DNA from: an uncultured Dysosmobacter sp.
GTDB lineage: Bacteria; Bacillota; Clostridia; Oscillospirales; Oscillospiraceae
DNA: 64,000 nt
NCBI RefSeq assembly: GCF_947631165.1
Contig: NZ_CANRKH010000014.1
Coordinates: 1 to 64,000, forward strand
Direction: 5' to 3'
The notes under the pieces were generated by a model, which was not told where the DNA came from, ran no database searches, and saw only the letters and a list, made by a program, of their open reading frames with translations. Each line of letters opens with the position of its first letter. Positions within the stretch are counted from its first letter, which is position 1. Below are positions 44,021 to 64,000 of this stretch, one piece after another. The position numbers and the translations under genes are program-made.

Positions 44021-44096
44021 GGAAAGTACAGAAACAACATTTTGTTGTATTCTGCATTGACAAGAATTGCCCTCGGCCCATTCTTGTCCGCCTGTC

Positions 44097-44206
44097 CCCA
44101 AAGAGGAAAGCCCCTGCCTGATAAGTGGGGAGCCAAAAAAGAGGAGAGCCTCTGCCTTGAGTGAGGAGCTAAAAAAGAGGAGAACCCCTGCCTTGAGTGG
44201 GGAGCT
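44097..44206 (+). repeat. Three tandem 36-38 nt antitoxin repeats
   Basis: Units: 44097-44134 (38 nt, loop two bases longer), 44135-44170 and 44171-44206 (36 nt each). The shared core is AGAGGA, a 4-bp stem, TGCCTTGAGT loop and GGAGC. Units 1 and 3 pair CCCC with GGGG; unit 2 pairs CCTC with GAGG, a compensatory change that supports an RNA structure. Confidence 0.85.
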
Positions 44207-50496: not shown

Positions 50497-50521
50497 CGCA
50501 GGGGGTTTGCCCCCCAGGAAA

Positions 50522-50637
50522 AAGGGGCTCCCCGCGCGGCCTGCCGCGTGGGGAAAGGACGAATGACGGAACGTTGTGAGCTTTCGGCATGGCCGGAAGC
50601 GAATAGAGTGAAGTTTATGAGGACGTGAGGACAAGCT
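50522..50637 (+). repeat. Structured leader element, copy A
   Basis: Hairpin 1 is CCCC-GCGCGG…CCGCGT-GGGG (about 50530-50553). Then AAAGGACGAATGACGG gives a Shine-Dalgarno and ATG that opens a 22-codon frame (MTERCELSAWPEANRVKFMR…). Hairpin 2 is CTTTCGGC / GCCGGAAG (50581-50599). The tail GTGAGGACAAGCT leads to the ATG of the next gene at 50638. Confidence 0.65.
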
Positions 50638-50883
50638 ATGACGAAAACAAGCAAGAAAGCATTGAACGAGCTGTTCCGGCGGCTGCTGGAAGAGGCAAAA
50701 GAGGATATCCGGCATTTTGCGGAAAAAGACAGCGGCGCGGCCCTGATCTGTTACGGAAAGGTCTGCGGCTATGTGCGCGTGATGGAAAAGCTGGAGCTGA
50801 TCGACTGGGAGCAGAGCCGCTTTATCCAGGACGAGGCTTTCGCGCTGGTCCAGGGGAGGGAGCCGGAATATGAGGGGTGCTGA
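50638..50883 (+). CDS. Small phage protein, unknown
   Basis: 81 residues, helical (MTKTSKKALNELFRRLLEEA…), acidic C-terminus. It starts immediately after leader element copy A, whose GAGGAC serves as ribosome site. It overlaps the next gene by 14 bp. No family recognised. Confidence 0.6.
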   Translation: MTKTSKKALNELFRRLLEEAKEDIRHFAEKDSGAALICYGKVCGYVRVMEKLELIDWEQSRFIQDEAFALVQGREPEYEGC

Positions 50884-51073
50884 GAGGGGGTATGCCCCGA
50901 CGAGATACAGAGGCAGGAAGCCAAGAGGCGGGCCGTCGCCGGACGCCGTGATGCTGCTGATGATCCTGGCGCTGATAACGGTGATGTCCATGACCATGCG
51001 GCTCAGCGGACGGCTGACGGGCATGACCGCCCGGGAACAGCTCTATCACGCGATCTGCGTGGAAGAGGCATGA
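50870..51073 (+). CDS. Small phage membrane protein, unknown
   Basis: 67 residues. A basic N-terminus (RGYAPTRYRGRKPRGG) is followed by one transmembrane helix at about 28-46 (VMLLMILALITVMSMT). The ATG lies in the previous gene's end, after GGAGGGAG. Unknown function. Confidence 0.55.
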   Translation: MRGAERGYAPTRYRGRKPRGGPSPDAVMLLMILALITVMSMTMRLSGRLTGMTAREQLYHAICVEEA

Positions 51074-51089
51074 AGAGAGGAGGCAGACA

Positions 51090-51410
51090 ATGGCGGACAA
51101 GGGGAAACGGGCCATGTTGTGGGAAGTGGGCTGCGAGGGCCACACAGACGCATGGGTGACTGCCGGCAACTGGGAGCTGGCCACCGTGGCGGCGGCGGAG
51201 TTCTGGGGCGTTCCCTGGCGGGAGGTGGCGGCCAAATGCGAGCTGAAGCAGAAGATCACCGGCGCGCCCCGCAATATCTGCTGCCGGTGCGGCCGGACCT
51301 ATTATGGCGGTCCGCCCATGTGCGGCGCCTGCAAGCTGACGGCGCAGACGGAGGAGGCGCTGCTGCGGCGGAGGCTGAAGCGGGCGTATCAGACCGGGAA
51401 GGTCATGTGA
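51090..51410 (+). CDS. Small phage protein with zinc-ribbon cysteines
   Basis: 106 residues. ICCRCGRTYYGGPPMCGACKL near residues 63-85 has two C-x2-C pairs and probably binds zinc. The first part (VGCEGHTDAWVTAGNWELATVAAAEFWGVPWREVAAKCEL) is a small domain seen in phage regulators. GAGGAGG is upstream. Function unknown. Confidence 0.6.
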   Translation: MADKGKRAMLWEVGCEGHTDAWVTAGNWELATVAAAEFWGVPWREVAAKCELKQKITGAPRNICCRCGRTYYGGPPMCGACKLTAQTEEALLRRRLKRAYQTGKVM

Positions 51411-51453
51411 AAACGCCCTGGCGGGGGGCGAAAGCAAAAGAGAGGTATAACGT

Positions 51454-51798
51454 ATGGTTGAGGAAGCGATCAAAAAGTTGGAAAGCGAGTTTCAGGCTGG
51501 AAAGTATAACCGGTATGGGCAGGTCATGAAGCAGGGGGTCCTGGACGCTCTGCGGGAGTTCTGCGGGCAGGACGAGGAGTTTGCCCAGGCGGTGGTGCAG
51601 GGCGGGACTTTTTCGGACTGCATGAAGGCCGTGGCAAAGAACTGCGGCAGCGGGATCTCAGACCTGACGGCCTATGAACGGGCAGTGCAGTTCTATTTCC
51701 CTACAGCAGCGGTCCGCTTTCAGATGCGGATCGACCTGGCGCCCCACGCGGCAGAGGATACCCGGGCGGTGGTGCTGAATCTGGCGGATTTTCTGTGA
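51454..51798 (+). CDS. PcfK / AcrIIA9-like family protein
   Basis: 114 residues: MVEEAIKKLESEFQAGKYNR, a helical middle, FSDCMKAVAKNCGSGISDL and TAYERAVQFYFPTAAV. This pattern matches the PcfK-like family, some members of which were shown to inhibit Cas9 (AcrIIA9). The next gene is PcfJ-like, as in conjugative plasmids and phages that carry both. The anti-CRISPR role is inferred from family only. AGAGAGG precedes ATG 51454. Confidence 0.65.
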   Translation: MVEEAIKKLESEFQAGKYNRYGQVMKQGVLDALREFCGQDEEFAQAVVQGGTFSDCMKAVAKNCGSGISDLTAYERAVQFYFPTAAVRFQMRIDLAPHAAEDTRAVVLNLADFL

Positions 51799-51812
51799 GG
51801 GAGGCGCGGACA

Positions 51813-53510
51813 ATGGCTGATAAAGACCGTGCGGCACGGCTTGCCAAGGCCGCGCCGCCGCTGAACGAGGCGGAAAAAGCTGCTGTGAACGCACTGTTTC
51901 CGGCGTATGCGTTCCGCCGCTCCCGAACCAGGGAGCTGTGGATGAGCTGCTGCCGGAAGCACCGGACCCTGCCGGAATGGAACCGGCAGAGCGCGGCGGA
52001 GCAGGCAATGATGCGGGAGCTTCACCAGCGGGAGCCGAAGCACTATTACGGCGGTGAAGCGGAGCCGGCGGCGGTGTGCCCATACTGCGGGACACCGGTG
52101 ATCGTGAAGGAGCTGGGCCGGACAGGGAAGCGGAGGAACCTCTCCCGCTGGCGGCGGGCGGTAGTGCTGCGGTGGAGCGGCGGCAGCCTTTGGGCCAGGG
52201 CCTATGACTGCGGGAAGCACTACTCTGACGGATATTCCCTGACGGGCATCCCCAATATGAAGCTGGTGGGGGTCTACCGGTTCCGGCCAGGACTGGCGGA
52301 GGAGACCAGCAGGAGCTGGTACGGCAATGATGGATTCCGGTATTACGCGGCCCAGAACGGCCCGCTGACCGGCGGAAGATGGAATATCCACAGCCCCTTT
52401 TCCTGCAACACGGAGTATGGGATGGGATTTGATGTGATCGGGCTGGAGGAGATCGGGAAAAGCCCGTTTCGATACTGCATGGCGGCGGAGTATGAAAAGC
52501 ATAGCTCCTATTTTTTGGAGTTTTTGACCGCCTGCTGCTTCTATCCCCGGCAGATCGAAATGCTGATGAAAGCGGGGATGCGGGATGTGGTCCGGGATCT
52601 GGCGGCCCGGGGCGTGAAAAACGCCATGGCCATCAACTGGACGCGGGAGGATCCCATGGAGGCCTTTGGACTGGACAAGCAGGAGCTGCGGGCCTTTCTG
52701 GCCACCAGCCGGGATATCGACATTCTGACCCTGTACAAGCGGCTGAAGGGCCGGGTCTCCATGGAGGAGGCGGCGGATTGGGTCGGAAGAGGCATCCATA
52801 TGCGGGAGACGTTCCATCAGGCAAAGGTGTGGAACCTGCCGCCGGAGCAGCTGATCCGGTATCTGGCCAGGGAGACAGACGGATACCTGGACAGCGCCCT
52901 TCTCCACTGGAAGGACTATCTGACAGCGGCCCAGGCACTGGGCTATCCGCTGCACCGGGAGAATGTGCTGCTCCCAAAGGGGCTGGACGCCGCCCATGAT
53001 TCGGCGGTCCAAAAGCACCGGGACAAGCTGGAGCGGGAGCGGAAGGCAGCGGACGCGGAGAAGAAGCGGCTGGCCGCGCTGGCGTATCAGGACCGGAAAA
53101 AGAAACTGGAGAAGCGGTATGGCTACGAGGCCATGGGCTATGTGATCCGGGTACCGGCCAACGAGGACGAGATCATTGCGGAGGGGCAGGCGCTGAAGCA
53201 CTGTGTGGCCGGATATGCCAACCGGCACATGCAGGGGCAGGTCACCATTCTCTTCATGCGGAAGAAACGCAGCCTGGACAAGCCCTGGCTGACCATCGAG
53301 ATGTCCGGGAAACGGCTGGTGCAGATCCATGGATACCGGAATGAGGGAATGTACTCCACGAGGGGCCGGTTTGCCCCGGACCCCAGAGAGACATACCGTG
53401 ATTTTTTGGACCCGTGGCTGGATTGGGTGGCCGCTGGAAGCAAGCGGGACAAGGCTGGGGCGCCGGTCCTGCCTAAGAAAAAGAAGGAAACGGAGGTCAA
53501 AAGCGCATGA
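51813..53510 (+). CDS. PcfJ-like protein
   Basis: 565 residues. The N-terminal part has zinc-like pairs (CPYCGTPV). The C-terminal PcfJ domain shows EGQALKHCVAGYANRHMQGQ, TILFMRKKRSLDKPWLTIEM and VQIHGYRNEGMYS. PcfJ family members accompany PcfK in mobile elements; the biochemical role is not established. ATG 51813 has GAGGGAGG upstream. The stop overlaps the DUF3102 start. Confidence 0.8.
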   Translation: MADKDRAARLAKAAPPLNEAEKAAVNALFPAYAFRRSRTRELWMSCCRKHRTLPEWNRQSAAEQAMMRELHQREPKHYYGGEAEPAAVCPYCGTPVIVKELGRTGKRRNLSRWRRAVVLRWSGGSLWARAYDCGKHYSDGYSLTGIPNMKLVGVYRFRPGLAEETSRSWYGNDGFRYYAAQNGPLTGGRWNIHSPFSCNTEYGMGFDVIGLEEIGKSPFRYCMAAEYEKHSSYFLEFLTACCFYPRQIEMLMKAGMRDVVRDLAARGVKNAMAINWTREDPMEAFGLDKQELRAFLATSRDIDILTLYKRLKGRVSMEEAADWVGRGIHMRETFHQAKVWNLPPEQLIRYLARETDGYLDSALLHWKDYLTAAQALGYPLHRENVLLPKGLDAAHDSAVQKHRDKLERERKAADAEKKRLAALAYQDRKKKLEKRYGYEAMGYVIRVPANEDEIIAEGQALKHCVAGYANRHMQGQVTILFMRKKRSLDKPWLTIEMSGKRLVQIHGYRNEGMYSTRGRFAPDPRETYRDFLDPWLDWVAAGSKRDKAGAPVLPKKKKETEVKSA

Positions 53511-54730
53511 GCGATCTGGAGAGCGCCAGAACTATGGGGGTCCCCGCTGGAGCCCAGCGGAGCGGGTCCAGTGGGGAGGGGCCGAGCAGCGGAATGAGGG
53601 AGCCTGCGCCAGAAAGCGCAGGCGAGAGATATGGAGCTTGTGAGGACGAGATGGAGACGGCATACAAAATGACAGACAATTACTATCGGGAGCTGATGGC
53701 GAAGAGGGGGGAAGCGCTTACGCCGCCGGTGGGCGTTTCCAGGGGGATCGCGGTCATTACAGACGAGATCCTGTTTTATAAGAATGTGGGCGGCAGCGCC
53801 GTGATCGAGATCGGGCGGCGGCTGATGGAGGCCAAAGCCCAGCTTTCTCATGGGGAATGGCTGCCCTGGCTGCGGGACAAGGTGGACTTTTCAGAGCGGA
53901 CGGCAACCAATTTCATGCGGCTGGCAAAGGCATATGGAAATCAGCAGACGATTGCCGATTTGGGAGCCTCCAAAGCCTTGGCACTGCTGGCTTTGCCGGA
54001 ATCTGAGCGGGAGAGCTTCGCCGCGGAAAAACACACGGTAAACGGCGTGGAAAAGTCTGTTTCGGACATGAGCAGTCAGGAGCTGAAACAGGCCATCCGG
54101 GAGCGGGACGAGGCGAGACTGGCGGCGGAAAAAGCCAAGGCCGAGGCGGACGCGGCAGAGGCCAGCCGGGCCAAGATGGAGACGGATATGCGGCAGCTGA
54201 AGGAGCTGCAGGCCCGGGCACTGGAGGACCAGGCGGCCAAGGCGGCGGAGGTGAAGCGGCTGGAGGACGAGCTGGCAGCTATGAGAAACAGGCCGGTAGA
54301 TATTGCTGTGGAGGTGAAGGACGCCTCCCCGGAGCAGATCGCCCAGGCCCGGGCGGAGGCTGCCAAAGAGGCCCATGCCTCCATGAAGCAGGCGCTCCAG
54401 AAAGAACTGGACAGCAAGGAGGAGCAGCTGCGGAAGGCCCGGGAGGACCTGAAAAAGGCCAGAGAGGAAGCCAGGACCGCCAATGTGGGACTGCGGGAGG
54501 CGGAGGAGGCGGCCAGGAAGGCCCGGGAGGCCGCGGAGAAGGCCGAAAGGGCGGCCAAGGTCAACAGCAGCCAGAATATGGTGCGCTTTACCATTCTGTT
54601 CAACCAGACCCAGGAGACGGTGAACCAGATGGCGGACGCTGTGAAGCGGGAGCCGCCGGAGAACCAGGAGAAGATGCGGGCGGCCATGCGGGCGCTGTCC
54701 GACGCCATTGGAAAGGCGGCAGGCACATGA
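53507..54730 (+). CDS. DUF3102 phage protein with long coiled coil
   Basis: 407 residues from ATG 53507 (GGAGGTC upstream, overlapping pcfJ). Residues about 10-48 are encoded by leader element copy B and have low-complexity Gly/Ser/Pro content. The DUF3102 domain begins near residue 60 (GIAVITDEILFYKNVGGSAVIEIGRRLMEAKAQLSHGEWLPWL…FSERTATNFMRLAKAY). Residues 165-355 form a continuous coiled coil rich in Glu, Lys and Ala. The native start may be 53594 or 53651. Probably a replication or partition accessory. Confidence 0.8.
   Translation: MSDLESARTMGVPAGAQRSGSSGEGPSSGMREPAPESAGERYGACEDEMETAYKMTDNYYRELMAKRGEALTPPVGVSRGIAVITDEILFYKNVGGSAVIEIGRRLMEAKAQLSHGEWLPWLRDKVDFSERTATNFMRLAKAYGNQQTIADLGASKALALLALPESERESFAAEKHTVNGVEKSVSDMSSQELKQAIRERDEARLAAEKAKAEADAAEASRAKMETDMRQLKELQARALEDQAAKAAEVKRLEDELAAMRNRPVDIAVEVKDASPEQIAQARAEAAKEAHASMKQALQKELDSKEEQLRKAREDLKKAREEARTANVGLREAEEAARKAREAAEKAERAAKVNSSQNMVRFTILFNQTQETVNQMADAVKREPPENQEKMRAAMRALSDAIGKAAGT
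53542..53650 (+). repeat. Structured leader element, copy B
   Basis: Hairpin 1: CCCCGCTGGA pairs with TCCAGTGGGG (53542-53576) around conserved loop GCCCAGCGGAGCGGG. Then GGGGAGGGG and an ATG near 53594. Hairpin 2: CCTGCGC / GCGCAGG. The tail TTGTGAGGACGAG precedes ATG 53651. It lies inside the open frame of the DUF3102 gene. Confidence 0.75.
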
Positions 54731-55161
54731 GGATCGAAAAGGTCCGGTGCGGGAGCTGCATATACGGAGCGGGGCCGCTGAACATATTCCGCTGCAATTA
54801 TGCCGGACTGACCGGAAGGACCCGGAAAGGGCAGCCGCCGGAGAACTGCACATACTTTCGGCCGGGGCGCAGGCTGGAGACGCCGGAGGAGGCGGCCCGC
54901 TGGCAGAAGGCGCGGCAGAAAGAGGCGAAGCGCCGGAGGAACAGCCCGGACTGGGAAAAGGGCGGGGACCTTTACCGGCAGGGACAGAACGACGGGGAGA
55001 TCGCCCGGGCACTGGGGTGCAGCCGGGGCGCTGTGCTCCAGTGGCGGAGGCGGAACGGCCTGCGCGCCAACGCCGGGCCGGTAAACCGGGAGGGATGGCA
55101 TGGGGATCAACATCAGGAATCCACGGCAGTACATGGAGAATTTTTTATACATCCGGGATAA
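54727..55161 (+). CDS. Phage HTH protein (possible terminase-associated)
   Basis: 144 residues. The N-terminus has cysteines (VRCGSCIYGAGPLNIFRC, NCTYF) that may bind zinc. The C-terminal HTH (YRQGQNDGEIARALGCSRGAVLQWRRRNGL) resembles small DNA-binding domains of phage regulators or terminase small-subunit-like proteins. It overlaps the previous stop (ATGA) and runs 62 bp into terL. Confidence 0.65.
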   Translation: MRIEKVRCGSCIYGAGPLNIFRCNYAGLTGRTRKGQPPENCTYFRPGRRLETPEEAARWQKARQKEAKRRRNSPDWEKGGDLYRQGQNDGEIARALGCSRGAVLQWRRRNGLRANAGPVNREGWHGDQHQESTAVHGEFFIHPG

Positions 55162-56929
55162 GAAGCAGCGGCTTGTTCCGCTGAAGCTCAAGCCCGCCCA
55201 GGAGAACCTGTACCAGATCATCAAGGAGGAGCACCAGGCGGGACGGCCTGTGCGCCTGATCGTGCTGAAGGGGCGGCAGGAGGGCATTTCCACGGTGACG
55301 GAGGCACTGATGTTTCAGGACGCCGCCACCCGGCCTCTGGTGAACACCCTGATCGTGGCCCACCGGGACGACGCCACGGCCAACCTGTTCCGCATGAACA
55401 AGCTGTTTTACGACTGCCTGCCCCAGAGCGTACAGCCCATGAAAAAGGCCAGCAACGCAAAAGAACTGGTGTTCGAGAATCCCACCCGGGACGAGGGGGA
55501 GAAGCGGCGGCGGCCGGGGCTGCGGTCCCGGATCAAGTGCGTCACTGCCGGGGGCAAGGGCGCGGGCCGGTCGGACACCCTGACCAATGTGCATCTATCG
55601 GAGTACGCCTTTTGGCCGGGAGACAAGAAGGGTATGCTGGCGGGCATCATGCAGGCCGTGCCGGACGACCCCAACACCATGGTCATCATCGAGAGCACCG
55701 CCAACGGCTTCGACGACTTCAAGGAGCTGTGGGACGGCGCTGTGGAGGGGACCAACGGCTGGAGGCCGGTCTTCCTGCCCTGGTACATGGAGCCGGAGTA
55801 CCGGCGGCCTGTAGAACCTGGAACTATTTGGACAGATGAGGAAAAGAAAATGATGGGGCCCCCGCCGGAGCCCAGCGCAGCGGTCAAGGTGAGCCGCGAG
55901 AGCGGCGAGAAGGCCCTCTGGAGGGGTCCGGTGGGGAGAGGAGAGGCAAGGAAGCGGTTCGAGCCCTGGGCGAAAGGCCGGGGCGAGTATAGCGGACTTT
56001 GCCTCGACGAGGAGCAATTGGCCTGGCGGCGGTGGTGCATCCGCGTCAATTTCGGCGGGGACGAGCAGTTATTCCGCCAGGAGTACCCCAACACGCCGGA
56101 CGAGGCGTTTTTACTGTCCGGTGATCCCTATTTTGACAACGACGTTATCATGGCCCGGCGCCGGGCGGTCCAGGAGCCGCTGCGGACCGGCCTTTTCGAG
56201 CATCCGGAGCCGGAGATCGAGGGGGGTGCGCCCAGGGATTGGGGCTTTGTGGACCGGGAAAAGGGCTTCATCCGCATTTATGAGGAGCCGAAACCGGGGG
56301 TCCCCTACGTCCTGGGCGGAGACACCGCCGGAGAGGGCAGCGACTGCTTTACGGCCCACGTGCTGGACAACACAGACGGGCACCAGGTGGCGGAGCTGCA
56401 GCAGCCCCTGTCGGAGATCCTGTACGCCCGGCAGGTATATTGCCTGGGGCACTACTACAACGACGCGCTGGCGGCCATCGAGGTCAATTTTTCCACCTAT
56501 CCCGAGATGAAGCTGGAGGAATGGCACTATCCGAACCTCTATCAGCGTGAAAGGTTCGACACCTTTACAGGGGAGATGGTGAAGGCCTTTGGCTGGATCA
56601 CCAGCTCCAGGACCCGGCAGGTGATGCTGGCGGAACTGCACACCGTCATGGAGGAGGCCCCGGAGCTGGTGGCCAGCTTCCAGACCCTGGGGGAGATGCT
56701 GACCTTTGTATACGGCAAGGGCCGCAAGCCCCAGGCGGCGGAGGGGGAGCACGACGACCTGGTGATGGCCGCCGCCATTGCCCATCAGGCCCGGCGGCAG
56801 CAGCGCTGCACTGTGGACCGCCCCGGCGGGGAGAAGGTGCGGTGGACGGCGGACATGTGGGAGGACTATCAGAACGCCGGCGAGGAGGTCCGGAGGATGC
56901 TGGTGAAAAAGTGGGGGCCCCCGGCGTGA
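55100..56929 (+). CDS. terL: Terminase large subunit
   Basis: 609 residues. The ATPase has a Walker A-like GRQEGIST near 58-65 and Walker B NTMVIIEST near 195. The nuclease domain has GGDTAGEGSD near 405 and GEHDDLVMA near 552. It cuts and pumps phage DNA into the prohead. Residues about 253-298 (MMGPPPEPSAAVKV…) are an insertion encoded by element copy G, absent from the usual TEEQLAWRR-linked sequence. The last codons fall in copy C. The small subunit is 5.8 kb away. Confidence 0.9.
   Translation: MGINIRNPRQYMENFLYIRDKKQRLVPLKLKPAQENLYQIIKEEHQAGRPVRLIVLKGRQEGISTVTEALMFQDAATRPLVNTLIVAHRDDATANLFRMNKLFYDCLPQSVQPMKKASNAKELVFENPTRDEGEKRRRPGLRSRIKCVTAGGKGAGRSDTLTNVHLSEYAFWPGDKKGMLAGIMQAVPDDPNTMVIIESTANGFDDFKELWDGAVEGTNGWRPVFLPWYMEPEYRRPVEPGTIWTDEEKKMMGPPPEPSAAVKVSRESGEKALWRGPVGRGEARKRFEPWAKGRGEYSGLCLDEEQLAWRRWCIRVNFGGDEQLFRQEYPNTPDEAFLLSGDPYFDNDVIMARRRAVQEPLRTGLFEHPEPEIEGGAPRDWGFVDREKGFIRIYEEPKPGVPYVLGGDTAGEGSDCFTAHVLDNTDGHQVAELQQPLSEILYARQVYCLGHYYNDALAAIEVNFSTYPEMKLEEWHYPNLYQRERFDTFTGEMVKAFGWITSSRTRQVMLAELHTVMEEAPELVASFQTLGEMLTFVYGKGRKPQAAEGEHDDLVMAAAIAHQARRQQRCTVDRPGGEKVRWTADMWEDYQNAGEEVRRMLVKKWGPPA
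55857..55938 (+). repeat. Structured element copy G inside terL
   Basis: CCCCGCCGGAGCCCAGCGCAGCGG (first 20 bases match copy E) begins hairpin 1 at 55860. The closing arm TCCGGTGGGGAGAGGA lies at 55926-55941 after about 45 extra bases. It is translated in frame as part of the terminase, in a different frame from copies E and F. Confidence 0.65.
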
Positions 56930-57030
56930 CCCAGCGGAGCGGTCACGATGGGAGAGGAGGAGCAAGGGAGTGCCGCAGTTTTCGCCATAGGCGGAAACGG
57001 AGTTAAGCGGACTTTGTGATGACGAGGTGG
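56912..57030 (+). repeat. Structured element copy C after terL
   Basis: Hairpin 1 arm GGCGTGA pairs with TCACGAT around loop CCCAGCGGAGCGG. GGGAGAGGAGGAGC follows. Hairpin 2 is GTTTTCGCC / GGCGGAAAC (about 56976-56999). The tail is TTTGTGATGACGAG. A short second start of the element (GGGGGCCCCCGGAGCG) begins at 57029. Confidence 0.65.
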
Positions 57031-57083
57031 GGGCCCCCGGAGCGTTGAATTTTACACTCTGGCGAATAAAAGGAGGTATTGGC

Positions 57084-58144: not shown

Positions 58145-58692
58145 GCAAAGCGGTCCTGATAAGCATACAACCGAAATGGTGTGAGCTGATTGCATTGGGC
58201 AAAAAGACGGTGGAAGTCAGGAAGAGCCGTCCCAAGCTGGAAACGCCGTTTAAGTGCTATATCTACATGACGGCCGGTGATGCTTCTATCTCCAACGGCA
58301 GGGGTATGGTTGCACATCATTCCGGCGGGAAATGTGTCATTGGAGAGTTTACATGTGATTACATAGAGGCAATCCTAGCCGAGTCGTTTATTGTAAGAGA
58401 GGATGCGCTTCGAGCCATTGATGGGACCTGTATGACAGTTCCGGAAGTAAAGAACTATGCTGGTTGGAACAAGGGAATGTGGGTATTTGACTGCAAAGAC
58501 CTTTTCGGTTGGCATATCTCAGACCTGGTTATCTATGACAGGCCGAAGACGTTATACCATTTCCGCAGGGCGTTGGAGTGTCATCGAGGTAATTACAAAG
58601 ATGGTTGTGTTGGTTGTTGGGATTGTCAAATCGAGCGGCCTCCGCAATCGTGGTACTATGTGGAAGAATTGAAAGGCGGCGACGAGGGATGA
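58141..58692 (+). CDS. ASCH-like domain phage protein
   Basis: 183 residues. It opens AVLISIQPKWCELIALGKKTVEVRKSRP and continues VIGEFTCDYIEAI, matching the ASCH/PUA-like fold thought to bind RNA or modified bases. A C-terminal Cys cluster (GCVGCWDC) may bind metal. It overlaps its neighbours at both ends (ATGA). Role inferred only at the fold level. Confidence 0.75.
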   Translation: MSKAVLISIQPKWCELIALGKKTVEVRKSRPKLETPFKCYIYMTAGDASISNGRGMVAHHSGGKCVIGEFTCDYIEAILAESFIVREDALRAIDGTCMTVPEVKNYAGWNKGMWVFDCKDLFGWHISDLVIYDRPKTLYHFRRALECHRGNYKDGCVGCWDCQIERPPQSWYYVEELKGGDEG

Positions 58693-59084
58693 CTAGAGAG
58701 GAAGCAATCAAAATCCTTGAAGATGGAGAATGGTGGGATAACATAAATGAGTTCTACGAGATGGTAAATCCGGAGTTTCAGAAATTGCATGATTCAGTGG
58801 ATGTGGCTCTTTCCGCCCTCCGCTCCCAGCAGGAGGCGGAAAATGAGCCGCTGACGGGGTGGATCAGCGTGAAGGACAGGCTGCCGGAGAAAGGCAACGA
58901 GGACTGGTATAACATTGTTTTGACCAAGGAGAGATCCGGAGATCTACCAATGAGGCGAATTGTCAAAGTTGGATACTGGGACTGGTATCACAAGCGTTTT
59001 TGGGGATTTGAGGTGGGATATGGTTATACCGTCACCCACTGGATGCCGCTTCCGGAGCCGCCGAAGGAGGGTGCCCATGCCTGA
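58689..59084 (+). CDS. DUF551 domain phage protein
   Basis: 131 residues. The C-terminal half is DUF551: GWISVKDRLPEKGNEDWYNIVL…VGYWDWYHKRFWG…VTHWMPLPEPP. The first half (MTREEAIKILEDGEWWDNI) is a common phage helical lead-in. Function unknown. GACGAGGG lies upstream. Confidence 0.8.
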   Translation: MTREEAIKILEDGEWWDNINEFYEMVNPEFQKLHDSVDVALSALRSQQEAENEPLTGWISVKDRLPEKGNEDWYNIVLTKERSGDLPMRRIVKVGYWDWYHKRFWGFEVGYGYTVTHWMPLPEPPKEGAHA

Positions 59085-59136
59085 TCGTGTATGGAACAGG
59101 GCTGACCTGTTTCAAATATATAAAATGGAGGAATGA
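59077..59136 (+). CDS. Possible 19-residue phage peptide
   Basis: MPDRVWNRADLFQIYKMEE, ATG 59077 with GGAGG five nt upstream. It overlaps the previous stop and ends just before the next gene's start. It may be a translational bridge rather than a functional peptide. Confidence 0.3.
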   Translation: MPDRVWNRADLFQIYKMEE

Positions 59137-59139
59137 GCA

Positions 59140-60096
59140 ATGAACAAGTACATCGGAACGAAGCTGGTGGAGGCGGAGCCTGCCAAGCGGTATGAGGATG
59201 CCAACGAGTTTGTCATCATCGAGGATAGCAGGGAGGATGTCAGCACCGGAGAAGGGGAAGTGATGAAGAACGCCACATCCTGCGCGGCGGGATACAAGGT
59301 CCGCTACCCGGACGGGTACGAGAGCTGGTCGCCCAAAGAAGTATTCGAGCGGGCCTACCTGTTGCTGACATCCAACGACCACATGCGGACGGACGCGCCC
59401 AGCATCAGTCAGGAGATGGTAGATGATTTCATCGTGGCTACTGAGGCCATTACTATGGGAGACAAAACTACGGTCGTTCGGGCTATGCTGAAGAATGGTT
59501 TTGAGATCGTGGAGTCCTCCGCCTGCGTCAGCCCTGAGAACTATGACGAGAAACTGGGCCAGGAGATCTGCATGGAGAAGATCAAGGACAAGGTGTGGCA
59601 TCTGTTGGGCTTCCTGCTGCAGACGGCGGTGCATGGCGTGGATGGCTGCCGTCTGGCGGCGCGTGCGTGGAAACCAGATGATGAGGCAGAAAAAGCCGAC
59701 GTGGGCGATGGTCCTTGCGGTTTCTATGGGGCCGTGCCGCCTGCCGTAGACGATGGTCCCTACAGGATGGATACGCCATGCGGTTTTTATGGGAGCGATC
59801 CGGCCAACTGCTTTGGAGAGGAACAGGAGCGCCGGACGGGGCTGACTTTCGGACAGGCCATTGAGGCGGCCAAGCGGGGCGCCAAGATCGCCCGGAAGGG
59901 CTGGAATGGCAAAAATCAGCATATCGAGCTGGCATCCGCGATCAGCTATCGGGCACCGGATGGAACGGTGGTCAACGCGGAGCATGACGCCATTGGCAAC
60001 CGGGCCTTTGCGTTCTGTGGGACCTCCGGCGTACAGATGGGCTGGCTGGCCTCTCAGGCTGATATGCTGGCTGAGGACTGGGAGATCGTGGAGTGA
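59140..60096 (+). CDS. Gp49-like / DUF2829 (Tad2-like) fusion
   Basis: 318 residues. N-terminal segment MNKYIGTKLVEAEPAKRYED…YKVRYPDGYESWSPKEVFERAY is common in phage proteins. The middle (VSPENYDEKLGQEICMEKIKDKVWHLLGFLL) matches the Gp49 family. The C-terminal 85 residues (LTFGQAIEAAKRGAKIARKGWNG…GWLASQADMLAEDWEIV) are DUF2829, the Tad2 family that sequesters the cyclic nucleotide signal of Thoeris defence. A linker with two near-repeats (CGFYG) joins them. GGAGG lies upstream. The anti-defence role is by family. Confidence 0.8.
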   Translation: MNKYIGTKLVEAEPAKRYEDANEFVIIEDSREDVSTGEGEVMKNATSCAAGYKVRYPDGYESWSPKEVFERAYLLLTSNDHMRTDAPSISQEMVDDFIVATEAITMGDKTTVVRAMLKNGFEIVESSACVSPENYDEKLGQEICMEKIKDKVWHLLGFLLQTAVHGVDGCRLAARAWKPDDEAEKADVGDGPCGFYGAVPPAVDDGPYRMDTPCGFYGSDPANCFGEEQERRTGLTFGQAIEAAKRGAKIARKGWNGKNQHIELASAISYRAPDGTVVNAEHDAIGNRAFAFCGTSGVQMGWLASQADMLAEDWEIVE

Positions 60097-60110
60097 TGGT
60101 GTGAGAACAG

Positions 60111-60138
60111 AAAAGCCCGCCGGGGAGACCCGGCGGGC
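60111..60138 (-). terminator. Terminator of hicAB
   Basis: Stem GCCCGCCGGG / CCCGGCGGGC, loop GAGA; on the minus strand it is followed by TTTTCTG. Confidence 0.8.
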
Positions 60139-60155
60139 ATGAGAGGAAAGGTGCA

Positions 60156-60509
60156 TCAGGAAAGACCTTTGCTGAGGAGGTAGAGACAGAGCTGGTTCAT
60201 GCTGATCCCCTCGTCAGCGGAACGCTGGGCCAGCAGCTTGTGGAGGCTTTTGGGAATGCGGAGTTTGAACTGGCCGCTGAAATCCTCCAGTCTGGCAGGC
60301 TCCGGGATGGGGGCGCCGTCCTCCAGGCAGGCGGTGAACCAGGCCTTTTTCGCGTCCTCGATCATCTGGAAGCCCTCTTCCACGGTATTTGCGGAGGTGA
60401 CACAGCCTGGAAGCTCCGGGCAGTGGAGGGCATAGCCGCCCTCTTCCTCGTCGGGGATCACCTCCACCCGGTAGGGCAGGGACATATAGTATTGCAGATC
60501 CTTCTCCAT
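60156..60509 (-). CDS. hicB: HicB antitoxin
   Basis: 117 residues. The partial RNase-H-like fold is evident from PYRVEVIPDEEEGGYALHCPELPGCVT…TVEEGFQMIEDAKKAWF. The C-terminus (FKLRIPKSLHKLLAQRSADEGISMNQLCLYLLSKGL) is a ribbon-helix-helix DNA-binding region. It neutralises HicA and represses the operon. ATG 60509 is favoured since upstream codons lack family similarity. It lies 28 bp after hicA. Confidence 0.92.
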   Translation of the reverse strand: MEKDLQYYMSLPYRVEVIPDEEEGGYALHCPELPGCVTSANTVEEGFQMIEDAKKAWFTACLEDGAPIPEPARLEDFSGQFKLRIPKSLHKLLAQRSADEGISMNQLCLYLLSKGLS

Positions 60510-60537
60510 AACAAACCGCCTCCAACGGCCAGACGTG

Positions 60538-60786
60538 TCATTCCTCCGATTCCAAATACTGTTGGACGGCCTCTGCCACCAATTTGATATACGCACGGTT
60601 CATGGGCGATTGCTTCGGGATCGTGATGGGCATACACCCGGATTTTCGAAACGTATAGTGGCTGCTGCCTCCGCGGGGCTGTTCACACTGGTAGCCGATG
60701 CTTTCCAGGGCCTTGCATAGATCGTCAAACCGGAGATTGGGGCTTTTTTCCAAAATGGCTGTAACAAGTTTATCCCACTTACTCAT
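60538..60786 (-). CDS. hicA: HicA toxin (mRNA interferase)
   Basis: 82 residues. RGGSSHYTFRKSGCMPITIPKQSPMNRAYIKLV contains the catalytic His in the dsRBD-like fold. It cuts mRNA unless bound by HicB. AGGAGGAAT lies upstream. The gene order hicA-hicB is the common one. Confidence 0.92.
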   Translation of the reverse strand: MSKWDKLVTAILEKSPNLRFDDLCKALESIGYQCEQPRGGSSHYTFRKSGCMPITIPKQSPMNRAYIKLVAEAVQQYLESEE

Positions 60787-60976
60787 TTTTTATTCCTCCT
60801 GCATATGAGAGATAAGTAATAATCAAAAGATCTGTGATTCGGGAAGCATTAAAAGTTGAGAAATAAAAATAAGTTTTGAGATTTAAGTGTTAGATGTTTG
60901 AAAGTTAAGTTTTGAGTTTTGAATTTTGAATTTTAAAGATGAAGTTTGATCATGTTGATTCCTTCCCGATATCTGG

Positions 60977-61006
60977 ATTATAGCATGGTGTCATATATGG
61001 TGTCAA
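60977..61006 (-). promoter_or_regulatory. Promoter and likely operator of hicAB
   Basis: On the minus strand TTGACA, 18-nt spacer, TATAAT. The spacer contains a direct repeat of GACACCAT separated by ATAT, a fitting HicB operator. Leader about 180 nt. Confidence 0.7.
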
Positions 61007-61050
61007 GCGGAAATTTCGCTTTTGAAATCTGCGCCGTTTAAACAGGGATC

Positions 61051-61150
61051 CCAAAAATGCTTGCATTTTTGGAAAGAGGAGGAGCGGCAAAACGAGTGAG
61101 TTTTCAGTGAAACTGGAAACGAACGATGTGGAGCTTGCTCCGACGACGGC
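61051..61150 (+). repeat. Structured leader element, copy D
   Basis: Hairpin 1 CCAAAAATGC / GCATTTTTGG (61051-61072) differs wholly in sequence from other copies but keeps the position. GGAAAGAGGAGGAGC follows. Hairpin 2 GTTTTCAGT / ACTGGAAAC (61100-61120). The ATG of other copies is ACG here. Tail TGTGGAGCTTGCTCCGACGACG. Confidence 0.55.
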
Positions 61151-61386
61151 GGCGTGGATTTGAGAAGCGGATATACATATTAAAGAACGCGCGCGTGCGT
61201 TCTTTGCGGGACCTTTCAACGCCTATGTTTGAGATGAAAGAGATTTTCAGGGCCGGAGCGGGCGGAACGGCGGCACCCGGCCATGGGTGGAAAGTGGAGC
61301 GTGAGAGCGCTTTGCAAGATTTGTCAAGGACACTCCTGCGCGGGGGCGCGGGTACCTATGCTTTTATACGCGGAGGAGAAAACGTG

Positions 61387-61470
61387 ATGGGGAAGATATG
61401 TTTTTGGGGCCCCCGCCGGAGCCCAGCGCAGCGGGTCCGGTGGGGAGAGGACGAACGCCGAAATGAGTGA
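61387..61470 (+). CDS. Mini-ORF running into leader element copy E
   Basis: 27 residues (MGKICFWGPRRSPAQRVRWG…RRNE), ATG 61387 with GGAGGAG upstream. The tail is encoded by element copy E. The stop overlaps the start of a second 15-codon frame (MSEFSARRERGIWRK, 61463-61510), which ends 5 bp before the HUH gene start. Likely a leader peptide or a by-product of the element. Confidence 0.3.
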   Translation: MGKICFWGPRRSPAQRVRWGEDERRNE

Positions 61471-61515
61471 GTTCTCGGCTAGACGGGAACGAGGGATATG
61501 GAGGAAGTGAGGACG
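61411..61515 (+). repeat. Structured leader element, copy E
   Basis: Hairpin 1 CCCCGCCGGA / TCCGGTGGGG (61411-61445), loop GCCCAGCGCAGCGGG. GAGAGGACGA and ATGAGTGAG follow. Hairpin 2 GTTCTCG / CGGGAAC (61471-61490). The tail GGAGGAAGTGAGGACG precedes ATG 61516. Confidence 0.75.
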
Positions 61516-62337
61516 ATGTACATGGTGACAAAGATCGTCAGCGGGAACGTGGTGGAGCGGAGAAAGACCAGGATCGTCCGGCAGCCGGCCAAGCGGGGAA
61601 GCCGTGTGCGGGGGAACAGCAGCGAGCGGAAGATCGTGGGGAACCGGGAGTATGCCAAGCTGGCCCTGGCCAGGACCATCAACTGCAACATGACGCCGGG
61701 GGACCTGTGGCTGACGGCCAAATTCGACGCCGCCGGGCTGGAGACTGTGGGCGGGACATTTGAGGGCGCCCGGAAGGCAGGGCGGAAATTCATTGACCGG
61801 CTGGTGTACCGCATGAGAAAGCTGGGGCTGGTGTGCAAGTGGTTTCTGGCGGCGTCGGAGATCGACGGGGAGACGGGGGAGCTGGTGCGGCCCCACGTCC
61901 ACATCATCATCACCGGGGAGGGCTTTGAGATCCGGGAGAAGCAGCTGTACTTCGGGGCGGAGCTGGTGGACGATATCTGGGGGCTGGGGACCGTGGACTG
62001 GCAGCCTCTGCGGCACCAGCAGGACTATTACCCTCTGGCGGCCTATCTGGTGAACCAGGCCCGTGGCGTGGCGGACGAAAAGAAATGGACCTGTTCCCGG
62101 AACATGAGCAAGCCCAAGGTATCCCGGGAGATCGTCACCAGCGGCGGCCAGCTGCGCGTTCCGGCGGGCGCTGTGGAGCTGCCAGGGACCCGGTATGACC
62201 CGGAGAAGGGCCAGAACTTTGTGCGGTACATACCCAAGACCAGAGATCCCCGGCGGAAGGTGGGCGGACACAAGGAGATGGCCCTGGCCATGGCGGATAA
62301 GGACGGTGAAGGGGGCGGATGGAATGAGCTTCCGTAA
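61516..62337 (+). CDS. HUH-type replication protein (phage Rep / G2P-like)
   Basis: 273 residues. RPHVHIIITGEGF contains the HUH metal motif (HVH). QQDYYPLAAYLVNQARG supplies candidate catalytic tyrosines. NCNMTPGDLWLTAKFD and FIDRLVYRMRKLG are typical of Rep-like phage and plasmid proteins. It would nick DNA to start rolling-circle-type replication. ATG 61516 follows element E. Its end overlaps the HTH gene. Confidence 0.78.
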   Translation: MYMVTKIVSGNVVERRKTRIVRQPAKRGSRVRGNSSERKIVGNREYAKLALARTINCNMTPGDLWLTAKFDAAGLETVGGTFEGARKAGRKFIDRLVYRMRKLGLVCKWFLAASEIDGETGELVRPHVHIIITGEGFEIREKQLYFGAELVDDIWGLGTVDWQPLRHQQDYYPLAAYLVNQARGVADEKKWTCSRNMSKPKVSREIVTSGGQLRVPAGAVELPGTRYDPEKGQNFVRYIPKTRDPRRKVGGHKEMALAMADKDGEGGGWNELP

Positions 62338-62602
62338 GCTCCAGGGCGTGAATATACCGGAGGAGAAGCAGGGAGCGGTCCGGTTTGCCTGCCTGACCGC
62401 TGAGGATCAACCGAAGATCATCCGGGAAAAAATCGAAAGGCTCTGCCACGAGGTGGGAGGGCCTTATAGTGCTGCTTTGCGGGACGTGATGTGCAGCCGG
62501 AAGAGCATCACGGCTATCGCTGTGGAACATCACGTCAGCGAAAGCACGCTGTACCGGATGCGGAAAGAATTTTACGAAAGCTGGTATAGAAGGCGTGCGT
62601 AA
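62324..62602 (+). CDS. Phage HTH regulator (ArpU/late-activator-like)
   Basis: 92 residues. The HTH at the C-terminus (SITAIAVEHHVSESTLYRMRKEFYESW) follows a helical segment (KIIREKIERLCHEVGGPYSAALRDVMC). Small sigma-like or ArpU-type proteins in this position, just before terS, usually activate late genes. ATG 62324 overlaps the Rep gene. Confidence 0.65.
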   Translation: MSFRKLQGVNIPEEKQGAVRFACLTAEDQPKIIREKIERLCHEVGGPYSAALRDVMCSRKSITAIAVEHHVSESTLYRMRKEFYESWYRRRA

Positions 62603-62629
62603 GGATCGCGGGCGGAAAATCCGCAAAGC

Positions 62630-62659
62630 GCTGGGGGCGTTAGGCTCCCAGCTTTTTTT
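62630..62659 (+). terminator. Terminator before the packaging genes
   Basis: Stem GCTGGG / CCCAGC (62630-62652) followed by seven T. It separates early and late transcription units. Confidence 0.8.
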
Positions 62660-62749
62660 CATGCCTGAAAAGTTGGTGATTTCAGACAGGTCATCTGTGC
62701 TACGCTATTATTAGCGAGAGTTATGATGCGCGGCGGGGGAGGTGTCTGC

Positions 62750-63226
62750 GTGGCGGAGAGGACAGAGGCTGAGAAGCTGGGGGCGGCGCTGAAGCCCAGG
62801 GAGCGGACCTTCGTGCGGGAGTATCTGGTGGACCTGTGCGGCACCAAGGCGGCCATTCGGGCAGGGTACTCCGAGAAGTCCGCCGCCAGCCAGGCCAGCC
62901 GCCTGCTGCGTAAGCCGGAAATTCGGGCCTACCGGGACGCGCTGCTGCAGGAGCAGTTCGACGCTATCGGCATCACAAAGCACTCTATCGCGGCGGAGGT
63001 CTGGAAGCTGTATGAGCGATGCACCCAGCAGAGGCCGGTGAAGATCTGGGACAGCCAGAAGCACGACTATGTGTTCGCCGGACTGTGGGAGTTTGACGTG
63101 AAGGGCGCTTTGAAGGCCCTGGACATGCTGCGGCAGATGCTGCCGGAGATGGGGAAGGACGAGGACGGCGGCGGGCCGAGCCTGGAAGATATGGTCATGG
63201 GCGGGACATCTGGAAGAGAGTTTTAA
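62750..63226 (+). CDS. terS: Terminase small subunit
   Basis: 158 residues. LKPRERTFVREYLVDLCGTKAAIRAGYSEKSAASQASRLLRKPEIRAYRDAL is the standard small-terminase DNA-binding HTH. A C-terminal oligomerisation part follows. GTG 62750 has GGGGGAGG upstream; ATG 62723 has none. It recognises phage DNA for packaging. terL lies upstream, not downstream as usual. Confidence 0.9.
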   Translation: MAERTEAEKLGAALKPRERTFVREYLVDLCGTKAAIRAGYSEKSAASQASRLLRKPEIRAYRDALLQEQFDAIGITKHSIAAEVWKLYERCTQQRPVKIWDSQKHDYVFAGLWEFDVKGALKALDMLRQMLPEMGKDEDGGGPSLEDMVMGGTSGREF

Positions 63227-63271
63227 AGCGCGGCGGAGACGGCTCTGCGGAATATGGAGGTTGAAAGAACG

Positions 63272-63373
63272 ATGGCAAAGCGGAACGATGAAAAGACGCT
63301 GGGCAATGGGGGACCCCGCGAAAGCCCAGCGAAGCGGGTTTCGTGGGGAGAGGAGGGACGACGGAATGAGTGA
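63272..63373 (+). CDS. Mini-ORF running into leader element copy F
   Basis: 33 residues (MAKRNDEKTLGNGG PRESPAKRVSWG…RRNE), with GGAGG about 10 nt upstream. The last 21 codons are encoded by element copy F. The stop overlaps the portal start, so it could couple translation. Confidence 0.35.
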   Translation: MAKRNDEKTLGNGGPRESPAKRVSWGEEGRRNE

Positions 63374-63419
63374 GAAGGCGGCAAAGACGGCTTCGAAGGA
63401 TATGCAGTCCGTCCTGACG
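63314..63419 (+). repeat. Structured leader element, copy F
   Basis: Hairpin 1 CCCCGCGAAA / TTTCGTGGGG (63314-63348), loop GCCCAGCGAAGCGGG. Then GAGAGGAGGG and ATGAGTGAG; here this ATG is the portal start. The remainder (GAAGGATATGCAG…CTGACGATG) still aligns with copy E but is coding. Confidence 0.75.
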
Positions 63420-64000
63420 ATGTGGCAAGAGCGGCTGCGGCGGGCGGAGGAGGCCTACAGCGGGGAGCAGAGCCGGATGCTGCGCCGGGAACAGCTGGTG
63501 GACGGCAGCCATGAAATTTTGACCCGAGACGGCAAGAAGGCCAAAAAGCAGGCGGAGCACGTGCGGAACGTGTGCTTTGAGGTGGTGGAGACCCAGGTGG
63601 ACAGCAACATCCCCCAGCCCAAGGTAACGGCCATCCGGCAGGAGGACGAGGGGCTGGCGAAGCTGATCGAGGACCTGCTGCGGAACCTGCTGGACCGGCT
63701 GCCCATGGAGCGGATCAACGACGAGGCGGAGCGCATCTGCCCCACTCAGGGCGGCTATGGCCTGCTGGTGGACTGGGACAGCGGGGCATCCGGCCGGGGC
63801 TGGATGGGGGCGCTGAAGGTGACGCTGCTGCATCCGCGGAAGATCGTGCCCCAGGATGGCGTCTACCAGGTAGCGGACATGGATTACATCTTCCTGAAGG
63901 ACGCCCAGACCAAGGCGCAGATCAAGCGGCGGTACGGCGTGGATCTGGAGAGCGAGACAGAGGAGGACCCGGACGCCCGGGCCCTGGGCGCGGGGGCCAG
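63366..64000 (+). CDS. Phage portal protein, N-terminal part
   Basis: 211 codons before the window edge. MWQERLRRAEEAYSGEQSRMLRREQLVDGS, then VRNVCFEVVETQVDSNIPQPKV and ICPTQGGYGLLVDWDSG fit clostridial phage portal proteins, the dodecameric DNA gate. ATG 63366 has AGGAGGG 8 nt upstream. The first about 18 residues are encoded by element F. It directly follows terS, as expected. Confidence 0.85.
   Translation, partial: MSEKAAKTASKDMQSVLTMWQERLRRAEEAYSGEQSRMLRREQLVDGSHEILTRDGKKAKKQAEHVRNVCFEVVETQVDSNIPQPKVTAIRQEDEGLAKLIEDLLRNLLDRLPMERINDEAERICPTQGGYGLLVDWDSGASGRGWMGALKVTLLHPRKIVPQDGVYQVADMDYIFLKDAQTKAQIKRRYGVDLESETEEDPDARALGAGA

Follow-up and report, generated by a model that had tools for sequence, protein, structure and literature searches.

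The 64,000-nucleotide stretch of DNA analysed here (the window) carries seven copies of an element that, judging from relatives lacking it at the terminase and other sites, is an insertion. We see about an even chance that it is a short non-autonomous mobile element that acts as folded single-stranded DNA and, in some members of its family, chooses its sites by base pairing. In the proposed mechanism, the top strand of the element would fold as two hairpins ending in GACGA, and a trans-acting enzyme, with an HUH-type endonuclease as the likeliest candidate, would cut after GACGA and attach the resulting end to the target. Some members of the family would use the 10–19 nt immediately 5' of hairpin 1, with mismatches tolerated, to pair with the target across the insertion point and so determine the site. 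At the 3' ends of genes, the unit would bring along a copy of the gene's tail, so that the housekeeping gene stays whole.

Copies, fold, and distribution

The covariance model that a first-pass annotation of this DNA had proposed (R1) was trained on 40 rows, among which the copy at 53541 (as L005) is the sole member from the window, the other six window copies lying outside the training set. R1 recovers seven copies in the 64 kb, at 63.6–101.2 bits (E 1.6e-21 to 6.9e-13), and its next-best match there scores 7.7 bits. All six copies named by the annotation (at about 50.5, 53.5, 56.9, 61.05, 61.4, and 63.3 kb) are confirmed, and a seventh (55859–56010) was added within the open reading frame (ORF) of the terminase.

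50529..50626, + strand: copy 1 (R1 63.6 bits, E 6.9e-13; DNA fold z -3.65), with a plain hairpin 1 and no CCCAGCG loop, 5' of an 81-aa ORF at 50638
53541..53649, + strand: copy 2 (R1 101.2 bits; training-set member)
55100..56929, + strand: terminase large subunit, which holds copies 3 and 4 (PHROG 2, E 6.2e-24)
55859..56010, + strand: copy 3 (R1 76.6 bits)
56919..57025, + strand: copy 4 (R1 77.8 bits)
61048..61146, + strand: copy 5, intergenic, with a plain hairpin 1 (R1 69.5 bits)
61410..61516, + strand: copy 6 (R1 97 bits)
61411..61445, + strand: hairpin 1 of copy 6, with a GCGNAGC mini-hairpin at its tip (alignment to R1)
61452..61511, + strand: hairpin 2 of copy 6, made of an outer helix, a three-by-three loop, a 2-bp helix, and an inner helix (alignment to R1)
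61512..61516, + strand: GACGA 3' end of copy 6 (alignment to R1); where a copy elsewhere has a duplicated target, the target sequence continues from this motif or close to it
61516..62337, + strand: HUH replication initiator (G2P type), downstream of copy 6 (phrog_3584, E 4.5e-35; PF23343, E 3.2e-5, below its cut-off)
63313..63420, + strand: copy 7 (R1 99.5 bits)

Copy 2 lies about eleven codons past the ATG (53507) of an ORF assigned by Pfam to DUF3102 (53507–54730), with in-frame readthrough, and L199 has a copy at the same gene start. Copy 3 is in frame within the terminase ORF and has a hairpin-1 loop about 42 nt longer; this insert is present in L199 and absent from the relatives L200, L206, L207, and L208. 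Copy 4 lies where the terminase ORF ends and contains the stop codon of that ORF. Copy 6 is placed where the HUH replication-initiator (rep) gene starts, about 20 nt past an upstream ATG, and copy 7 close to where the portal gene (assigned by PHROG 156) starts; phage L031 carries a copy at the same place as copy 7.

The unit of about 100 nt consists of two hairpins back to back, with four helix segments and a GACGA 3' end. In the alignment of 40 copies, 93.6% of cells are paired and 26 of 33 pairs show changes on both sides. Such changes fill 310 cells, compared with a shuffle mean of 96.7 and with 28–65 cells when the partners were slid, and none of 500 shuffles reaches 310; the covarying, selected structure described by the annotation is thus borne out. 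GACG (CGTC on the other strand) is invariant in 40 of 40 aligned copies, partly by construction because copies were cut at this motif when they were chosen. The hairpin-1 loop, first described as constant, is exactly CCCAGCGNAGCGG in five of the seven window copies, those at 50.5 and 61.05 kb having a plain hairpin 1. The supposed Shine-Dalgarno GAGAGGA, ATGAGTGAG, and GGACGA belong to the conserved parts of the fold that stay unpaired, namely linker, internal loop, and 3' end. No named RNA family had been recognized, and Rfam agrees: at the gathering score it matched RNase P RNA only in the window and nothing at the element copies, and up to E 10 over 50–64 kb it returned eight weak matches, none a family match for the element. 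The weak eiav_FSE match (21.8 bits, cut-off 40) touches copy 6 with its 5' end, on the other strand.

Copies of the family recur among gut bacteria of the Oscillospiraceae type and among their phages. The host genome holds 47 copies, and the element was found in 22 of 25 same-genus genomes and in 3 of 15 others; per-genome copy numbers across genera are lower bounds, with at most 96 candidates scored per genome. From 302 rows plus seven window rows, 257 distinct copies were kept after same-place repeats and partial or short matches had been dropped by hand (a few cut-off ones, such as L024 and L025, were retained). The 257 include three (L216, L219, and L222) that came from a search with rpoD and bias the set towards duplicated copies. 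In the contig scan, the titles among the matches listed cover 80 of 119 stretches; three of these 80 with titles of other phyla or classes (L095, L107, and L120) reached at most 15.3 bits with R1 and were rejected as chance pattern matches.

Some insertion sites fall inside ORFs and others close to start codons, next to tRNA 3' ends, or at gene 3' ends (rpoD, pgk, tpiA, alaS, smc, and nadE), and we take the occupied genes to be essential or housekeeping genes. Gene names were assigned by Pfam at the loci tested, by blastn to the host rpoD for L216 and L219, and from end sequences read by eye for groEL (L138) and for pgk in L080 and L152. When reading frames had to stay open across the element plus 150 nt of flank at either end, 47 were counted in sense (43 of 240 copies) versus 95 in antisense, so that this test gives no evidence for frequent copies inside ORFs; the terminase and DUF3102 cases were inspected closely.

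Target duplication and the antisense stretch

A duplicated target was found for 37 of 244 usable copies. The 3' junction is precise: the second target copy begins exactly at the GACGA end of the element in 20 of the 37, and no more than 6 nt away in all of them. By our own sorting, the duplications comprise about 23 gene tails, 2 at tRNAs, 7 repeats in element arrays, and 5 without class. Gene-tail copies are on the sense strand, behind the gene, and often differ mainly by synonymous changes (14:0 in L101, 5:0 in L243, and 4:0 in L244; L268 and L240 were left out of the comparison).

In 15 of the 35 duplicated copies that were testable (among the 37), the stretch just 5' of hairpin 1 is perfectly antisense, over 8–15 nt, to the target across the insertion point. 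Elsewhere in these upstream sequences, perfect antisense matches of at least 8 nt occur in 15 of 1000 windows; the sense control gave 3 of 35. Since the sites in rpoD, pgk, flagellin, and triosephosphate isomerase are each shared by several cases, the 15 copies represent about 11 sites. At pgk (five loci, three alleles), the stretch is antisense over 12–13 nt to its own allele and over 6–9 nt to differing alleles. A targeting role for this candidate guide is what these matches suggest to us. Against it count the 20 of 35 testable copies that have no 8-nt antisense match and the 207 of 244 without duplication, as do the poor fit of L219 and L222 at rpoD to their own targets (7 and 8 nt, with the L222 stretch matching the L215 target better, over 11 nt) and a 10-nt antisense stretch in one of ten rpoD loci that lack the element. 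When the first bases after the element were considered, perfect 6-mers were found in 3.9% (152 copies) versus 1.0% in the null, and the guide was rejected as a general feature. No conserved motif was seen beside the guide target in a search by eye.

More tentatively, the family could be a natural homing system: an element of about 100 nt, with a DNA (or RNA) guide of 10–19 nt, would enter housekeeping genes at their 3' ends by pairing this guide with both sides of the insertion point. Such a system would carry the gene tail so that the gene remains intact, re-aim itself by a change of guide, and keep its DNA fold through compensatory changes.

Loop types and competing readings

Hairpin-2 loops were located by a simple stem search rather than by R1, among copies that are not independent. 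Tetraloops are of the types cGNNAg, gCNNGc, or cCNNGg in 63 of 108 cases (shuffled mean 23, maximum 37) and UNCG in 0 of 108, triloops are cGNAg in 25 of 55, and GNYA loops are more frequent than GNRA loops (27 vs. 15). Hairpin-1 loop counts are biased, because most copies outside the host genome were collected via the loop pattern. GNA and GNNA loops on G-C pairs are described as extraordinarily stable in DNA (PMC4686876). The occurrence of loops of DNA-stable types (GCGNAGC, cGNNAg, and gCNNGc) points to a spectrum that favours DNA over RNA and, as these types are seen on one strand only, the strand as drawn would be the folded one. Compensatory evolution together with DNA-pointing loops is a warning for covariation searches that assume RNA.

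Folding scores count against the DNA reading, with z from -2.6 to -5.4 when six window copies are folded as RNA versus -1.8 to -3.8 for DNA folding of window copies; wobble pairs, which suit RNA, are also common (U-G at one pair in 32 of 40 copies). According to an RNA version, which we consider unlikely, guide and scaffold would act as a guide RNA or as the RNA of a retro-element, directing a nuclease or reverse transcriptase to the insertion point, and the element would spread by homing, like OMEGA/HEARO RNAs or group II retrohoming. This version fits the order 5'-guide-scaffold-3', the strong RNA folding, the compensatory pairs with many G-U, and the sense orientation of gene-tail copies behind the gene. 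However, the HEARO model (RF02033) has 0 matches in the host genome at E<=10, Rfam offers no match, the loops are DNA-like in their lack of UNCG and their excess of GNYA, and in L138 a terminator-like hairpin (identified by eye) separates the gene end from the guide.

It is also doubtful that the element is a REP- or RPE-like palindrome, whose long target duplications arise by ordinary repair or transposition and whose interspecies spread results from homologous recombination in the flanking gene, with the antisense stretch as an idle by-product of fold-back synthesis. CGTC-tagged palindromic repeats with intragenic copies and no known transposase are on record (PMC3733652). The mostly synonymous gene-tail differences would be expected if the tails came from different alleles and, in L306, a 13-nt antisense stretch outlives a scaffold that the model no longer finds. 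However, flagellin copies L109 and L146 have a common mismatch in this stretch (by eye), which therefore looks inherited and not made afresh, and several species share one insertion point at pgk, rpoD, and flagellin.

The first-pass annotation had viewed the copies as a dedicated leader of several phage genes, supplying a ribosome site and start codon and controlled by one factor. This is now very improbable. Four of the seven window copies do stand at gene starts, the linker is Shine-Dalgarno-like, some copies contain ATGAGTGAG, and the element may be a putative local source of a ribosome site and start codon. However, the other window copies lie within the terminase ORF, at the terminase 3' end, and in intergenic DNA, and the family as a whole, with copies inside ORFs as well as at the 3' ends of genes and abutting those of tRNAs, keeps to no fixed place 5' of genes. 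At pgk, a copy that follows the stop codon (L309) shares linker and end with the window copies and contains an ATGAGCGAG; the related phage L200 has terminase, rep, and portal genes with no R1 match. An ATG just upstream of the copies in rep and portal leads us to infer that these were inserted near a gene start and are not ancestral leaders.

A self-removing intron-like RNA, with the antisense stretch as internal guide sequence for joined exons, can practically be dismissed. In its favour, the stretch reaches across the junction in the manner of a group I guide, and many second gene-tail copies keep the protein sequence. Rfam, however, shows no group I or II core, and the second copy has a stop in L109, has lost its stop in L219, and is itself not visible in L222.

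Candidate mobilising enzymes and known systems

For the mobile single-stranded DNA element that we favour, an adverse finding is that no mobilising enzyme was detected. The host genome (94% complete) gave no Y1 or RAYT match, and a Y1 transposase was rejected as helper because of its absence there. Elsewhere, 20 Y1/RAYT loci and 7 further RAYT loci contained no convincing R1 match (best 12.3 and 11.7 bits, respectively), and the nine ORFs carried as cargo between paired copies include no transposase family. RAYT genes are present in 5 of 25 same-genus genomes, which carry more copies than the others (Mann-Whitney p 0.004, per-genome counts being lower bounds). At least 17 copies were counted in 5 of 5 RAYT-positive versus 4 of 20 RAYT-negative genomes (p 0.002, the cut having been chosen afterwards), and four RAYT-negative same-genus genomes have 18–41 copies (lower bounds). 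We do not claim RAYT as helper: two RAYT reading frames contain their own GTAG-type hairpins (by eye), with no convincing R1 match nearby.

Like IS200/IS605 elements such as IS608, the element has a hairpin with a putative guide at its 5' foot, which would pair with the cleavage or target site (here as antisense), and it would probably be a strand-specific single-stranded DNA substrate. In IS608, the sites of cleavage and insertion are determined by guides that lie 5' of the hairpins, and targeting by base pairing uses 4-nt guides that have been lengthened by engineering (PMC5934647). Our element differs by its two back-to-back hairpins in about 100 nt, by the lack of a transposase gene, with no Y1 HUH transposase encoded or flanking, and by an antisense stretch of 8–19 nt, in a subset only, instead of a 4-nt guide. 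IS200/IS605 elements insert 3' of a fixed tetranucleotide and are not known to duplicate their target, whereas here varied sequences are found 5' of the insertion points and 37 of 244 copies have a duplication.

CGTC-tagged REPs, including Rickettsia palindromic elements, also have a CGTC end tag on one strand (GACG on the other; in our copies partly by construction), intragenic copies, and no known dedicated transposase. Those published have a single 8–9 bp stem with a 4–5 nt loop, span 20–40 bp, and come from Proteobacteria, Chlorobi, Bacteroidetes, Spirochaetes, and Thermotogae; in contrast, the element of Oscillospiraceae has about 100 nt, covarying stems, and a possible guide. GTAG REPs associated with RAYT are likewise non-autonomous hairpins thought to move as single-stranded DNA, but the element has no GTAG tag. 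HEARO and OMEGA RNAs combine a 5' guide with a structured scaffold tied to insertion sites, whereas the guide of our element would be antisense to the target gene.

Base pairing is already known to direct targeting in IS608, with its 4-nt guides, and in RNA-guided systems. If our reading is true, a short natural element with longer, allele-matched guides would add to the examples of mobile DNA that aims itself, and might point to a route by which CGTC-type repeats spread without a known transposase.

A dispersed element with a covarying fold

The folded repeat of about 100 nt that the first-pass annotation had read as a leader of phage genes is a mobile element found at dispersed sites, and its fold shows strong covariation. 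The leader reading was abandoned because copies also lie within a terminase reading frame, at the 3' ends of rpoD and pgk, and beside tRNA genes. The six copies named by that annotation (near 50.5, 53.5, 56.9, 61.05, 61.4, and 63.3 kb) are present, and R1, a covariance model of the element trained on 40 copies, adds a seventh that had been overlooked; all seven are on the + strand, and no other match in the window exceeds 8 bits. Across the host genome, R1 (E<=0.1) finds 47 copies; a 48th row represents one hairpin's antisense half. Within 15 kb of the window's prophage there are eight of these copies, the eighth at 65.4 kb on the same contig. Also assigned in the window:

42311-44101, - strand: large serine recombinase with Resolvase, Recombinase, and Zn-ribbon domains (Pfam), probably the prophage integrase
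29012-29386: bacterial RNase P RNA, class A (Rfam)

The stem of hairpin 1 varies freely, its tip often reads CCC-A-GC-GNA-GC-GG, and a nearly constant linker, GAGAGGA, comes next. In hairpin 2, an outer helix leads to a three-by-three loop, often GGA/GGA, and then to a short helix of two base pairs for which AU/UA, GC, and CG versions occur; after it come a purine-rich loop and the inner helix. The element ends 3' in GACGA, which faces the GAGGA of the linker across the foot of hairpin 2; the two might be joined by G-A pairs flanking a central G-C. In the terminase copy (55859-56010), the hairpin-1 loop holds 42 nt, with the frame kept, that are absent from the counterpart in phage L199 (3082-3191).

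Covariation was assessed in an alignment of 40 copies, 39 from elsewhere and one from the window, on which the structure was written by hand and pairs were then counted. In this alignment, 93.6% of cells are paired and 26 of 33 pairs have both-side changes. These changes occupy 310 cells, compared with 96.7 in shuffles, none of which (0/500) reached 310, and with 28-65 in a slid-partner control, which bears out the earlier claim of a selected, covarying structure.

Two observations suit RNA better than DNA: five of the six window copies folded have a relatively stronger fold as RNA, and wobble pairs are frequent in the alignment. The loops, in turn, are of DNA type. Among 108 hairpin-2 tetraloops, cGNNAg occurs 39 times, gCNNGc 22 times, and cCNNGg twice; shuffling gives a mean of 23 for the three combined. 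UNCG occurs in none of the 108. A pyrimidine occupies the third place in 26 of the 39 cGNNAg loops, which is not found in RNA GNRA loops. The gCNNGc and cCNNGg loops are selected DNA loops too. Of 55 hairpin-2 triloops, 25 are cGNAg. Among 257 copies, 191 have CAGCGNAGCG in hairpin 1 (N is A in 100, C in 45, G in 41, and T in 5), most copies having been found via that loop. DNA mini-hairpins with a GNA or GNNA loop closed by two or more G-C pairs are extraordinarily stable, and GCGAAGC melts at 78 C (PMC4686876).

Insertion sites and distribution

Judged by comparison of related sequences, the element is an insertion. The in-frame copy in the terminase ORF is common to the window and phage L199, and the same position lacks a copy in L200, L206, L207, and L208, the latter three being loci from related genomes. 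R1 has no match anywhere on L200, so its replication-initiator and portal genes also lack the element, which L031 has at both. Of 14 same-genus loci fetched for the rpoD 3' end, the host's among them, four have the element there; the remaining ten have neither the element at that place nor an R1 match above 13.5 bits. R1 matches 4 of 28 fetched pgk loci, one with a short version, and in several others the insert is degraded or of another kind. Seventeen tRNA neighbours lie no more than 40 nt from a copy and belong to 14 of 257 copies; 11 are on the opposite strand directly downstream of the copy, within 3 nt, and seven of these 11 abut exactly. At the pgk 3' end, L311 and L310 (genomes G004 and G024) carry an insert of a different type, whose own set of hairpins ends in ...GGCTGTGTCC or a similar sequence; here too the pgk tail is duplicated, in at least three successive repeats in L311. 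A copy also lies directly 5' of an apparent tmRNA gene, identified by eye (L233/L259, host contig C12, about 55.5 kb).

Of 244 usable copies, 37 have the target repeated behind the element; the repeat begins exactly at the element's 3' end in 20 of them and never more than 6 nt from it. Gene tails make up about 23 of these duplications, and Pfam names at duplicated sites include sigma-70 (rpoD), phosphoglycerate kinase, Mg-chelatase-like (comM), flagellin, Mur ligase, SMC, triosephosphate isomerase, rubrerythrin, alanyl-tRNA synthetase, LepA, and NAD synthase; among 17 duplicated-site ORFs tested, one (L103) had no Pfam family. The two tails, one beside the gene body and one behind the element, often differ by synonymous changes only, so that in many cases they seem to derive from different alleles, as though the unit had carried in its own tail. 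Changes are synonymous only (second figure zero) in L101 (14:0), L243 (5:0), L244 (4:0), L051 (3:0), L184, L146, and L138 (2:0), and L103 and L128 (1:0); L309 has 0:0 over 72 nt. The second figure is non-zero in L173 (5:2), L219 (4:2), L216 (5:1), L109 (1:2), L161, L037, and L080 (1:1), L119 (0:1), and L063 (0:9). Behind the element, the tail contains a stop in L109 and has lost its own in L219; in L222 no such tail is visible.

A loop-plus-linker pattern matched 28 stretches of viral contigs and at least 119 of genome contigs. Among the matches listed, 80 titled genome-contig stretches are mostly from Oscillospiraceae or unclassified Clostridia, with genera including Flavonifractor, Pseudoflavonifractor, Oscillibacter, Intestinimonas, Lawsonibacter, and Dysosmobacter; three of the 80, in other groups, were rejected as chance hits. 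R1 at E<=1e-6 detects the element in 22 of 25 genomes of the same genus; among 15 from other families of the order, three have it, each with one or two copies. Tandem copies occur on the - strand of L045 (three at 6613-6934, spaced about 106-111 nt) and in L018, L237, L239, L245-L247, L261, and L263 (host contigs C41, C23, C16, and C13), some near tRNA genes; in the latter arrays, a variant ending in TTTCTGAGCTGTACCAAGG rather than GACGA alternates with copies extended on the 5' side by a conserved sequence (AAAATACTTTTCCAGCCAAAGG or similar).

A guide-like stretch and the mode of movement

Some of the duplicated copies have, just 5' of hairpin 1, a stretch antisense to the gene that runs across the insertion point, commonly from about -7 to +6. 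Perfect antisense of at least 8 nt occurs in 15 of 35 testable duplicated copies, at about 11 sites, compared with 15/1000 for other windows of the same upstream sequences and 3/35 in sense orientation. At pgk (five loci, three alleles), the stretch matches its own allele over 12-13 nt and differing alleles over 6-9 nt; the 14 pgk loci taken as empty have at most 8 nt. Own-target matches at rpoD are 15, 11, 10, 8, and 7 nt, the stretch of L222 fitting another species better than its own target; of the ten rpoD loci that lack the element, nine reach 7 nt at most and L224 reaches 10. The flagellin copies L109 and L146 have one mismatch in common (by eye). The stretch is rare across copies as a whole, and none was seen in the window copies. 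The proposed guide-directed behaviour is supported by sequence statistics in a subset of copies.

In IS608, a 4-nt guide on the 5' side of each hairpin determines the cleavage and target sites by base pairing, and engineering has lengthened this pairing (PMC5934647); the complementary stretch of the element has the same position but is longer, and is confined to a subset of copies. This stretch, together with the DNA-type loops, the constant 3' end, and the precise junctions there, favours guided movement, in which folded single-stranded DNA would be moved by an enzyme acting in trans. The host genome has no match to Y1 or RAYT transposases. RAYT genes are found in five same-genus genomes, where element copies are more numerous, but in L298 and L299 the RAYT reading frame holds its own GTAG-type hairpins (by eye). 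The RAYT-type genes of L283, L285, L286, and L298 (G015, G016, G018, and G006) have similar surroundings, apparently two topoisomerase subunit genes (by eye). The phage HUH initiator adjoining copy 6 is a candidate enzyme, by position only.

Comparison with known repeats

Titles and abstract openings of literature on repeats, RNAs, and insertions of Oscillospiraceae, Faecalibacterium, Ruminococcaceae, Flavonifractor, and Oscillibacter contained no description of the element. Cleavage of GTAG REPs depends crucially on the GTAG motif (PMC8266576). CGTC-tagged REPs, including Rickettsia palindromic elements, have the end tag, gene-internal copies, and the lack of a transposase in common with the element; however, they are single hairpins of 20-40 bp, reported from other phyla (PMC3733652).
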